Positions 7,432 through 59,077 of a stretch of 64,000 bases of DNA are shown one piece after another; positions within the stretch are counted from its first letter, which is position 1, and every line of letters begins with the position of its first letter. The stretch comes from Neoscytalidium dimidiatum (lineage: Eukaryota > Ascomycota > Dothideomycetes > Botryosphaeriales > Botryosphaeriaceae): the NCBI GenBank assembly GCA_037367355.1, contig CM074695.1:3162001-3226000 (forward strand), read 5' to 3'. A program made the position numbers and the translations under genes. The notes under the pieces are model-generated. The model saw only the letters and a program-made list of their open reading frames with translations, was not told the origin of the DNA and searched no databases.

Positions 7432-8127
7432 ATGATGCGCAGACAAGCCCTTAGAGTAAATCAACCGTCTCCTACCCTTCCATTCAAAGAGGCAATCTGA
7501 AAGCTAACGAATCGAACAGGCGTCGGCGTCGACGCACAATATTTGCGTCTTCTGCGCGACCCGCCTCAGCCGCGACGTTGCCCTCCATCTCTCAACGACG
7601 ATACCCACGATCACCGCGCCCGCCGCTCGGTACGTCCAGCGCCGCGGCATCTCCTCCTCGCGCTCCACGGCACAGACTTTCGGCGCCGCGGCGGCCGTTC
7701 AGCAGCAACGGCGGAATGATGGCGACTGGCAAAACACCTCCACCGAGGACAGAGAACGCGAGCTCCTGCTGAGTCGATACAGCGCTTCGCCGTCGTCGTC
7801 TGGTCCACTTCGGACGTCTGCTTCAGCGGCGGCGGCGATCGATCCGGAGAAGGCGGCGTTGATGGCGAGATACGGTGTTCCTGCTGCAGCGGCGTCAACG
7901 CCGCCGCCGTCATCGCCGCAGACACAGACACAGATGCAGGGCGGATCGAAAATAAGGTTTTTGGGGAGGGACAATCGGAATGCTCAGTCGTCGAGGCAGG
8001 ATATGAGGAAGATGTACAAGGTGAAGGTCGAGTCGAGGCAGCACCAACACCAACAACGGCAAGATGATGCAGGTTTCGACGAGGAGAAGGTGCGGCAGTG
8101 GAAGCATTTGCGTCCGAGAAATCAACA

Positions 8128-8158
<31 letters not shown>

Positions 8159-10888
8159 CAACAACGACAGTCGCAGAGGCAGCATACTAGGGATAATCTG
8201 GGTAGGCAGGAACAGGGCGGAGCTCAAAGGCACACTGGCAGGACCGGATTCGTACCGCTGACGCCGGAGCAGAAATTGGAAGATAAGGAGAATCTTTTGA
8301 AGAGGTTCGGCTCTGCGAGAACGGCCCAGGCGGGACAGGCACAGGTACCGCAGTCTCAAGGATTCTTCCGGCCAGAAAGCGCGGAGGCCCGACCATCTGG
8401 AGAGGATGCCGAGACAAATGCGTTGAAGGCGGTTTTTGGGGCGGCAACACGCTTCTCAGGATCGTTTTCGTCCCAATCCCAGCTCAGCCCGGAACCTGGC
8501 CAGAATGCGGAACGGGAAGCTTTGCAAGCTCAATTCTCCAAGACGCCGTGGCGCACCGAACGAGAAGCGTTGCAAGCTCAGTTCTCGAAAACACCCAGGA
8601 GCGCAGAATCAATTTCTGCAAGAGTGCAACCATCGGAGACACCCACGGTTTATCAAGAGGCTGCGGAGGAGGTTCAGGAGGCGGGACGGCCCGAAGACAA
8701 AAAGTCAATAGCCCAGGAGATGGAGACGACAATGGCTGCAGTGCAGCAACCCAGAGAGCGTGAGCGTACGGCGAGATTCTCGAAGTTCGCTGATGTTGAG
8801 GAAGACGCTCCTCGCAAGCGGAAGGCCAAAGGAGGCTGGAGCAAGGCTTCAGCCCTTGATGATGACGTTGACCACAATTGGTCGGAACGCAAGTCGAAAA
8901 AGAAGGAGAAGAAGAATAAGCAACGCGCCCAAGAAGTTGTTGCGCCTACGCCGATTTACCTTCCGGAATACCTGAGCGTCGTCAATCTTGCCAACATGCT
9001 CAGAGTCCGCACGGAAGACTTGGTCCGCAAGATGGAGGAGCTTGGTTATGAAGATATCAATCACGATGATATCCTTAACGCTGAGAATGCTGGACTGATT
9101 GCTATGGAATACAATTTCGAGCCTGTTGCCGAGGACCCGTCCGATGATCTCGACCTTTACCCTGCTCCGGTGCCGGAAGACGTTACGAACCTACCTGCTC
9201 GTCCACCTGTTGTCACCATCATGGGACATGTTGACCACGGCAAGACTACTCTGCTTGATTTTCTACGAAAGTCATCCGTGGCAGCGACAGAATTCGGAGG
9301 TATTACCCAACACATTGGCGCTTTCAGTGTCCCTCTCTCCAGTGGCAAGACTATTACCTTCCTTGATACCCCTGGCCATGCCGCCTTCCTCAATATGCGC
9401 CAGCGTGGAGCTACAGTTACGGACATCGTCATTCTTGTCGTAGCCGCGGACGACAGTGTGAAGCCTCAGACTCTTGAAGCGATCAAGCACGCCAAGTCTG
9501 CACGTGTGCCCATCATCGTTGCAATCAATAAGATCGACAAGGAAGGAGCCAATCCGGATCGCGTCAAGCAAGATCTTGCCCGCCATGGCGTCGACGTGGA
9601 GGATTATGGCGGAGACGTCCAAGCCATTCTTGTCAGCGGCAAGACCGGTCAAGGCATGGAGGACCTCGAAGAAGCCATCATCACCCTCTCCGAAATCCTC
9701 GACCACCGAGCCGATCCCGAAGGTCCCGTCGAGGGCTGGATCCTCGAAGCCGCAACGAAGAAGTCTGGCAAGGCAGCCACCGTACTCGTCCGCCGCGGCA
9801 CGCTCAAGGTCGGCTCAATTATTGTAGCCGGCAAGACGTTCGCCCGTGTCCGCTCGATCAAGAATGAGGCTGGTGCTGATATTCCTTCCGTCGGCCCCGG
9901 CATGCCCGCCGAGATCGAGGGCTGGCGCGGTCAGCCCGAAGCAGGCGACGAGGTTCTCGAGGCGCCCAACGAGCAGCGCGCGACCGAGGTAGTCGAGTAT
10001 CGTGAGGCCAACGCCGAGCGTGTCCAGCTGGCCAAGGATATGGAAGCCATCAACGAGGCGCGCCGCCTGGAGCACGAGCGCCGTGAGCGCGAGAAGGCCA
10101 TCGCCGCAGCCGCGGAGGCCGGCGAGGAGAACCCGGAGGCTGCGGTCGCGGCGGCCGAGGCGGCGGAGAATGCGGAGGCGGGCGTCACGGAGGTGCCGTT
10201 CATCGTCAAGGCGGACGTGTCCGGCTCAGTCGAGGCGGTCGTCGACTACGTCATGACGGTCGGCAACGGCGAGGTGCGGCCTAAGGTGATCCGCTCGGGC
10301 GTGGGCGCGGTTACCGAATTCGACATTGAGTACGCAGCCACGGCGGGCGGGCACATCGTCTCGTTCAACGTCAGCCTCGAGCCGCGGTTGGCACGCGTGG
10401 CGGAGAGCAAGGGCGTGCGCGTGCTCGAGCAGAACGTTATCTACCGGCTGGTCGACGACGTCAAGGCCGTGCTGAGCGAGAAGCTGGCGCCGCTCGTCGT
10501 GCAGCGGGTGACGGGCGAGGCGACGGTGCTGGAGGTCTTCGAGATCAACTTGGGCAAGAAGGCGACGATGAATATCGCGGGGTGCAAGGTTACGAACGGG
10601 GCCGTGTCGAGGGGTAGCAAGGTCAGGGTGCTGAGGGGGGAGGAGAAAATTTATGACGGTATGTTCTCCTTTATTATTGTCCCTCATCCCTTTCCCCTTT
10701 TGGAGCTGTGAGCTAACGCACTTTGCTTTTTCGCAGGCACCGTCTCGTCGCTTAAGCAGGTTAAGAAGGACGTCTCGGAGATGCGCAAGGGGTCGGAGTG
10801 CGGCATGGCGTTCGAGGCCTGGGGCGATTTCAAGCCGGGAGACTCCATTCAGTGCTATGACGAGAGGTTTGAGAAGAGGAGTTTGTGA
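7432..10888 (+). CDS. IFM1: Mitochondrial translation initiation factor IF-2
   Basis: A GTPase that places initiator fMet-tRNA on the mitochondrial small ribosomal subunit. Exons: 7432-7455 (only 24 nt), 7520-10658, 10737-10888, giving 1104 residues. The N-terminus is basic and Ser/Ala-rich, as expected for a mitochondrial presequence. G1 is GHVDHGKT (about residue 577), followed by GGITQHIG (switch I), DTPGH (G3) and NKID (G4). The G domain is followed by the IF-2 domain II/III/IV region, with a coiled, charged insertion ([14 protein letters not shown]) and a C-terminal domain ending in [18 protein letters not shown]. Upstream of the G domain is an unusually long low-complexity region with a glutamine tract at about residues 210-227. 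The first exon rests on frame continuity (exon 2 is open back to its acceptor) and a GTAAAT donor, so the N-terminus is moderately sure; the enzyme assignment is firm. Confidence 0.94.
8126..8169 (+). repeat. CAG/CAA repeat encoding polyglutamine in IF-2
   Basis: An in-frame run of CAG codons followed by CAA codons encodes about 15 consecutive glutamines (the last one CAG-flanked after an Arg) in the predicted disordered N-terminal part of the mitochondrial IF-2. The mixed CAG/CAA composition suggests an older, partly stabilised tract. Confidence 0.9.
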
Positions 10889-58916: not shown

Positions 58917-58952
58917 GGGCATTTGGTCTAGGGGTATGATTTTCGCTTCGCA

Positions 58953-58968
58953 TTACTCTCAATGCATC
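58953..58968 (+). other. Canonical-position tRNA intron, 16 nt
   Basis: Inserted directly after position 37 of tRNA-Ala. ATGC within it (58962-58965) can pair with GCAT at the anticodon (58950-58953), giving the anticodon-intron helix usual for substrates of the tRNA splicing endonuclease. The exact boundary can slide by one base because a T occurs at both ends. Confidence 0.75.
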
Positions 58969-58988
58969 TGTGAAAGGTCGTGGGTTCA

Positions 58989-59046
58989 GTAAGTTTCTCA
59001 GTTCGAGCCATAGGGGTTGTAAAATTCTTACTAACAACGCGTTAAG
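58989..59046 (+). other. 58-nt spliceosomal-type intron in the tRNA T-loop
   Basis: Starts GTAAGT, contains a perfect TACTAAC branch-site match (59029-59035) eleven bases before its terminal AAG, and ends in AG. Excision joins TTCA to ATT, making the 7-nt T-loop TTCAATT, and restores all T-stem and acceptor pairs. It also contains GTTCGAGCC (59001-59009), a full match to the Pol III B-box consensus GWTCRANNC, while the tRNA's own B box is split by the insertion. Length and signals equal those of mRNA introns elsewhere in this window. Confidence 0.8.
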
Positions 59047-59070
59047 ATTCCCACAATGTCCAGCTTAATA

Positions 59071-59077
59071 TTTTTTT
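59071..59077 (+). terminator. RNA polymerase III T-run terminator of the tRNA gene
   Basis: Seven consecutive T residues begin eight bases after the discriminator base, the expected place for Pol III termination. This shows that the 3' half beyond the T-loop insertion is still laid out as part of a Pol III unit. Confidence 0.75.

Follow-up and report, generated by a model that had tools for sequence, protein, structure and literature searches.

Spliceosomal-type introns in the D- and T-arms of nuclear tRNA genes of Neoscytalidium dimidiatum

Intron-bearing structured RNAs and the tRNA-Ala(CGC) locus

The splicing of tRNAs is regarded as a system apart from that of mRNAs. Fungal rRNA genes carry spliceosomal introns, in Pol I transcripts, and a 1990 title by Frendewey et al. 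reportedly announced a B-box match within the intron of the Schizosaccharomyces U6 genes. The introns described here resemble those of fungal rRNA in being mRNA-type introns in a non-coding RNA, with the difference that rRNA is a Pol I product and the host here is a tRNA. Fission yeast and other fungi have an mRNA-type intron in their U6 snRNA, as the available part of PMC10484740 describes. In the fungal U3 snoRNA, according to the excerpted text of PMC5832005, introns have the donor GTRWGT and the branch site RCTRAC, with a branch distance that averages 15 nt. Apart from U3 and U6, that text knows of no small structured RNA that introns often interrupt.

As in U6, we find a GT-AG, spliceosomal-type intron in a Pol III RNA, with a B-box match within it. 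However, U6 belongs to the spliceosome itself and is interrupted close to its catalytic nucleotides, which is why its intron is thought to stem from reverse splicing, whereas the hosts here are tRNAs with a splicing system of their own, and several genes are interrupted at several sites. The likeness to U3 extends to the GT-AG introns, the RCTRAC branch sites, the small structured host and a presence that varies between paralogs (PMC5832005, same excerpt). Canonical tRNA introns, which follow position 37 and are removed by an endonuclease and a ligase, are present in the same genes and differ in site, length and signals. The ectopic tRNA introns of archaea and of Cyanidioschyzon merolae share the D- and T-loop positions and the occurrence of several introns per gene (PMC3978253, as far as its accessible portion goes); those, however, are bulge-helix-bulge introns, and pairing in that motif is no better here than in shuffled sequences. 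Nuclear tRNA genes with spliceosomal introns are not, as far as we could recognise, reported anywhere in the open-access literature searched, a body of text that mostly excludes subscription papers.

The window is the whole stretch of N. dimidiatum DNA analysed, 64,000 nt long. Its tRNA-Ala(CGC) gene is composed as follows.

58917-59062, + strand: tRNA-Ala(CGC) gene with two introns (sequence and ARAGORN)
58917-58952, + strand: exon 1 (sequence; ARAGORN on the spliced gene)
58917-58923, + strand: 5′ strand of the acceptor stem (sequence)
58926-58940, + strand: D-arm, uninterrupted (sequence)
58949-58951, + strand: anticodon CGC (sequence)
58952, + strand: A37 (sequence)
58953-58968, + strand: canonical 16-nt tRNA intron after position 37 (ARAGORN, i(37,16))
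58969-58988, + strand: exon 2, with the 3′ strand of the anticodon stem, variable loop, T-stem GTGGG and T-loop TTCA, positions 54-57 (sequence, ARAGORN)
58989-59046, + strand: 58-nt spliceosomal-type intron after T-loop position 57, GTAAGT...AAG (sequence, splice motifs, deletion scan)
59001-59009, + strand: intronic B-box match GTTCGAGCC at intron position 13 (0 mismatches to GWTCRANNC)
59029-59035, + strand: branch-site motif TACTAAC, predicted branch A at 59034, 11 nt remaining 3′ of the motif (motif scan)
59047-59062, + strand: exon 3, with T-loop ATT, T-stem CCCAC, acceptor AATGTCC and discriminator A73 at 59062 (sequence, ARAGORN)
59071-59077, + strand: run of seven T, 9 nt past position 72, which we take to be the Pol III terminator (sequence)

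A cloverleaf with the G3-U70 pair and an Ala anticodon is found only once both introns are out. The acceptor stem (GGGCATT/AATGTCC) then pairs 7/7, G3-U70 included, and the T-stem (GTGGG/CCCAC) pairs 5/5. A preliminary description of the locus had proposed this pairing, together with a 58-nt insert that starts with GTAAGT, ends in AG and carries TACTAAC 11 nt before its end; all of these are confirmed in the sequence, the last three bases being AAG. Its statement that removing 58 nt yields the cloverleaf needs an amendment: this removal is necessary but insufficient, and the canonical intron must also go. The latter pairs in an endonuclease-like manner (3/4 and 4/4 in the bulge-helix-bulge test). 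With the 58-nt insert in place, no tRNA is found at the locus by ARAGORN or by Rfam, the latter at the gathering score and at E up to 10; without it, ARAGORN returns tRNA-Ala(cgc) with a score of 107.6 and recognises the position-37 intron. When 20-90 nt were cut around the site, 20 of 9662 distinct products scored as tRNA; the GT-AG product came second, and the top product is the identical cut moved by one base.

Genome-wide set and splice signals

Pattern and BLAST searches of the genome (43.8 Mb, 40 contigs) identified at least 12 nuclear tRNA genes that hold 13 spliceosomal-type introns of 51-64 nt, a census to be read as a lower bound since the search patterns were tuned to cases already seen. 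The interrupted isoacceptors are Ala-CGC, Ala-AGC, Pro-AGG, Pro-CGG, Asp and Gly-TCC. Five sites are used, between positions 15/16 (one intron), 18/19 (one), 19/20 (two), 23/24 (three) and 57/58 (six), in the GT-AG register and with positions assigned by our own reading. A T-loop intron pattern matched 12 places genome-wide versus four for a reversed control pattern, and seven of these 12 represent six tRNA genes, every one cut after position 57: the window Ala-CGC gene, two Pro-CGG genes, and one each of Asp, Pro-AGG and Gly-TCC. A D-arm pattern (13 matches) led to Pro genes, including three Pro-AGG genes with GTAAGT or GTGAGT inserts, and two Ala-AGC genes with D-loop introns were recognised among nine pattern matches read. 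BLAST recovered a second Ala-CGC gene, on contig C2, whose T-loop is whole and whose D-loop holds a 51-nt insert (GTTAGT...TGCTAAT...TAG). One Pro-AGG gene on contig C7, near 504.2 kb, has three introns, namely a D-loop, a canonical and a T-loop one. By eye, the non-tRNA matches of four pattern searches (5, 13, 7 and 9 matches) contained no interrupted tRNA gene; a narrower T-loop intron pattern had 0 matches in a prokaryote genome collection, and one pattern had 0 in viral contigs. Thirty-nine nuclear tRNA matches fit the tRNA model end to end (63 matches, 24 of them on the mitochondrial-looking contig C40). We also note a group of four tRNA-Pro genes (TGG, CGG twice, AGG) within 31 kb at G000:C3:2859585-2890245, three of them with spliceosomal-type introns.

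Removal of the GT-AG introns turned 10 of the 10 genes tested into tRNAs with the expected anticodon in ARAGORN, each also with a canonical intron. Unspliced, six of these ten gave no call and four gave calls with displaced introns; two of these four were called Pro(agg) with an odd 68-nt intron. Counted directly, all 12 spliced genes have complete acceptor (7/7), anticodon (5/5) and T stems (5/5), with a D stem of 3/4 in 11 genes and 4/4 in one. Both spliced Ala-AGC genes were misnamed by ARAGORN (Ser, Tyr), with the canonical intron shifted, as was their intact paralog L072, and the Ala-AGC identity of the two genes is our own reading. In deletion scans of the T-loop introns, 20-36 of 7889-10684 distinct products scored as tRNA, the GT-AG product ranking first in five of six genes and second in one. 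For the five D-arm introns tested, the GT-AG product ranked 21 to 1046 and was not singled out; the scan is uninformative there because ARAGORN takes up the insert as an anticodon-loop intron. Two further loci, L065 and L066, are Val(TAC) according to ARAGORN but to our reading look like Lys(CTT) with a canonical intron.

Genes of this kind are easy to overlook: all 12 stayed below the Rfam tRNA cut-off. When 20 loci were scanned with Rfam at E up to 1, the unspliced genes had no tRNA among the matches listed, the list leaving out two matches of the same clan with lower scores; three of the genes coincide with weak tmRNA matches of that clan (13-21 bits versus a cut-off of 47). The intact Ala-AGC and Asp paralogs scored 40-49 bits in the same scan. 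In the available part of the tRNAscan-SE 2.0 description (PMC8450103), non-canonical introns are analysed for archaeal-search candidates.

All 13 introns have GT-AG ends and a predicted branch A 9-14 nt before the 3′ end. Donors are GTAAGT (11), GTGAGT (1) and GTTAGT (1), hence GTRAGT in 12 of 13; the branch motif is CTAAC in ten, CTAAT in two and TTAAC in one (CTAAY in 12 of 13); acceptors are CAG (6), AAG (4, among them the window intron) and TAG (3), which makes YAG in 9 of 13. The ends, donors and branch motifs fit a U2-type spliceosomal intron, whereas the four AAG acceptors count against this reading. In most introns the cut can slide by 1-4 bases, and the GT-AG register was chosen. The rna14 gene within the window, whose ORF has Diplodia intermedia (90% identity) and Macrophomina phaseolina (88%) as best named relatives, has two mRNA introns of 52 nt each with donors GTAAGC and GTAAGT; by eye, the CTAAY motif is absent from one of the two. 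At L057:2937-3061, roughly 1.4 kb 3′ of the tRNA-Gly gene of the set, lies a possible U1 snRNA, a partial match cut by the end of the locus and scoring 56.9 bits, below the cut-off of 69.5.

Alternatively, the insertions would be cut by the tRNA splicing endonuclease, as the ectopic introns of archaea and C. merolae are, and their GT-AG look would be coincidental. Nuclear tRNA genes of C. merolae do hold introns of 11-69 bp, some of them in D-, anticodon and T-loops, and the disruption is treated as bulge-helix-bulge-mediated in the accessible portion of PMC3978253; in our set, two Pro-CGG introns form 4/4 central-helix pairs (1/4 in the outer helix), and the second Ala-CGC gene reaches 2/4 and 4/4 in the endonuclease motif with a one-base shift. 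However, in a test that covered the strict motif and one-base shifts, the 13 introns average 3.2 of 8 pairs versus 3.0 when shuffled, 33% of shuffles being as high. Six canonical introns, as a positive control, average 6.7 of 8, a gap that is in part due to the anticodon stem (central helix alone: 1.9 of 4 for the 13 introns, 2.7 for the canonical ones). The recurrence of donor, branch site and acceptor in all 13 introns also argues against this explanation, and we consider it very unlikely. The spliceosomal reading put forward in the preliminary description thus finds support in the recurrence of such introns (13 in 12 tRNA genes), in endonuclease pairing at chance level and in the paralogs with empty sites presented below.

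Empty sites, constraint and copy number

Several paralogs carry the site without the intron. The Ala-AGC genes L072 and L128 hold an identical 44-nt canonical intron, and the D-loop intron, of 58 nt, is found only in L128, between GTTTAGTGG and TATAATACTCC. The Asp genes L088 and L089 are near-identical, with a T-loop intron present in L089 and absent from L088. The two Ala-CGC genes are cut at different sites and give reciprocal empty sites; the same holds for Pro-AGG gene 4 with respect to genes 1-3. Since near-identical tRNA paralogs differ in whether the intron is there, its recent gain can be tested directly.

All four Pro-AGG genes give one and the same mature sequence of 71 nt. Their first spliceosomal introns, compared in four pairs, are 52, 54, 58 and 68% alike, the 58% pair comparing different sites, with a median of 52% and a 95% point of 56% among shuffles; in the same comparison canonical introns are 75-100% alike and flanks 43-64%. 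The Ala-CGC genes have two mature differences, which together preserve one acceptor pair. The Pro-CGG introns are 92% alike and, on this sequence measure, theirs is the younger pair.

One could argue that intron insertion has left the interrupted genes dead or dying while other genes supply the tRNAs. For Asp, four intact genes exist beside the interrupted one, or one interrupted gene in five (119 matches, with all seven exact and five of seven one-mismatch matches read), and for Ala-AGC at least two genes are interrupted and at least one, L072, is intact. Since these two isoacceptors have intact paralogs, the interrupted copies there could be unused, and the genome does contain decayed Asp-like relics (L093). 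However, all 12 genes have full acceptor, anticodon and T stems, the four Pro-AGG genes keep the same mature sequence despite differing introns, and for four isoacceptors the pattern searches brought up no intact copy: every gene found is interrupted for Pro-AGG (4/4; six matches, the other two not tRNAs), Pro-CGG (2/2) and Ala-CGC (2/2; 26 matches for these last two, with four exact and eight of 22 one-mismatch matches read, the latter eight without an interrupted tRNA gene), and Gly-TCC (1/1; four matches). No intron-free gene for any of the four was found by these pattern searches of the genome, which used 15-19 bases with 1-3 mismatches and which diverged copies would escape. Pro-AGG (I34) is required to decode CCC and Gly-TCC to decode GGA, so losing these genes should not be tolerated. 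It is hard to believe, then, that the interrupted genes are dead copies.

The preliminary description had left the choice between a Pol III transcript spliced by the spliceosome and a recent casualty; the intact stems, the conserved mature sequences and the four isoacceptors without an intact copy found favour splicing over the casualty. We further conclude that intron removal is probably needed for CCU/CCC and GGA codons to be read. Assignment to the tRNA pseudogenes was considered and rejected, with stems of 7/7, 5/5 and 5/5 in all 12 genes and mature sequences kept between paralogs. As a separate observation, decayed and partly palindromic tRNA-Asp relics lie at L085/L091 (C2:381.8 kb), L093 (C4:3180370) and L094 (C6:3302189), no more than a few hundred bases from tRNA-Asp genes that are intact or interrupted.

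Pol III signals and the proposed maturation path

The features of a Pol III type 2 gene, namely an A box, a B-box match (here intronic) and a T run, are present at the window locus. The B-box consensus is GWTCRANNC. In the window gene the A box is uninterrupted (by eye) and the gene's own B box is split by the T-loop intron, as the tRNA B box is by all six T-loop introns. Each of these six introns has a B-box match at intron position 12-16, perfect in four and with one mismatch in two; in shuffled T-loop introns a perfect match arises in 0.5-1.4% and a match with at most one mismatch in 12-23%. A perfect match was found in none of the seven D-arm introns, of which five have two or more mismatches and two, both in Ala-AGC genes, have a one-mismatch match, at positions 5 and 31. 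Genes interrupted in the D-arm keep their own B box, except Pro-AGG gene 4, where the second intron splits it, and the A box of the second Ala-CGC gene is split by its D-loop intron. A run of at least four T lies 3′ of all 12 genes, 3-16 nt past position 72 in ten and 34-39 nt past it in the two Ala-AGC genes. Inside the 13 introns the longest T run is 4, reached in two of them. TATA-like stretches were also seen upstream.

These signals bear on a further alternative, in which Pol II makes the precursor RNAs of these tRNAs, their splicing is incidental and the Pol III signals are remnants. Pol II transcripts are the normal substrate of the spliceosome, which speaks for it. However, perfect B boxes occur only in the introns that split a B box (4/6 versus 0/7), and a T run follows each of the 12 genes while T runs within the introns stay at four or below; an origin from Pol II transcripts appears extremely improbable.

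We infer from the features above that Pol III transcripts of these genes are spliced by the spliceosome and that their products serve in translation. At the window locus, the nuclear tRNA-Ala(CGC) gene would be functional, its two introns being of different kinds. Pol III would transcribe it by way of the intact A box and the B box inside the T-loop intron; the spliceosome would then excise the 58-nt GT-AG intron and join T-loop positions 57 and 58, after which the tRNA splicing endonuclease and a ligase would excise the 16-nt intron after position 37. As a whole, this explanation, in which Pol III pre-tRNAs are spliced by the spliceosome and then cut by the tRNA endonuclease across the 12-gene set, is in our judgement highly likely, and the cell very probably uses its mRNA-splicing machine to make some of its tRNAs, a route that tRNA splicing is not known to take. 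The recurrence across the genome, the canonical intron and the intronic B box are additions to the preliminary description.

As to a common origin, likeness among the T-loop introns beyond the motifs is mostly weak. In 15 comparisons, the similarity of the Pro-CGG pair was reached by 0 of 1000 shuffles and that of Pro-CGG-2 with Pro-AGG-4 by 1 of 1000; five others were reached by 31-45 of 1000, and the rest by more. An introner-like element, as had been suggested for the window intron, would be expected in many near-identical copies, and a genome search that skips very common words left this intron without a second copy. We think it quite likely that these introns represent a third class of tRNA intron, arisen repeatedly in D- and T-arms; that CCU/CCC and GGA decoding is spliceosome-dependent; that introns at the B-box site persist through a B box of their own, whether brought along or evolved; and that single tRNAs pass through two unrelated splicing machines.

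If this is true, a genome that uses both systems would indicate that very compact Pol III genes are open to invasion by spliceosomal introns and can retain them, and it would link the reading of particular codons to spliceosome activity. The genes would also constitute a natural experiment on how an interrupted internal promoter survives.

Two minor observations complete the analysis. The mitochondrial-looking contig (G000:C40) has tRNA matches that repeat at an offset of about 176.85 kb; it looks like a tandem dimer, a sign that the mitogenome may be large. In addition, three copies of a conserved, non-coding-looking unit were found at L125 (C9:2040183), L133 (C9:1727220) and L135 (C10:1262508). 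No Rfam match to it was obtained at E up to 1. The unit has a GC hairpin and an A-box-like TGGTGCAGCGG, after which come GTAAGT and GGCTAACA; it also includes a stretch with CTCCCCTATGGACGGGG as well as a T run. It may be a Pol III RNA or a SINE, perhaps with an intron of its own.
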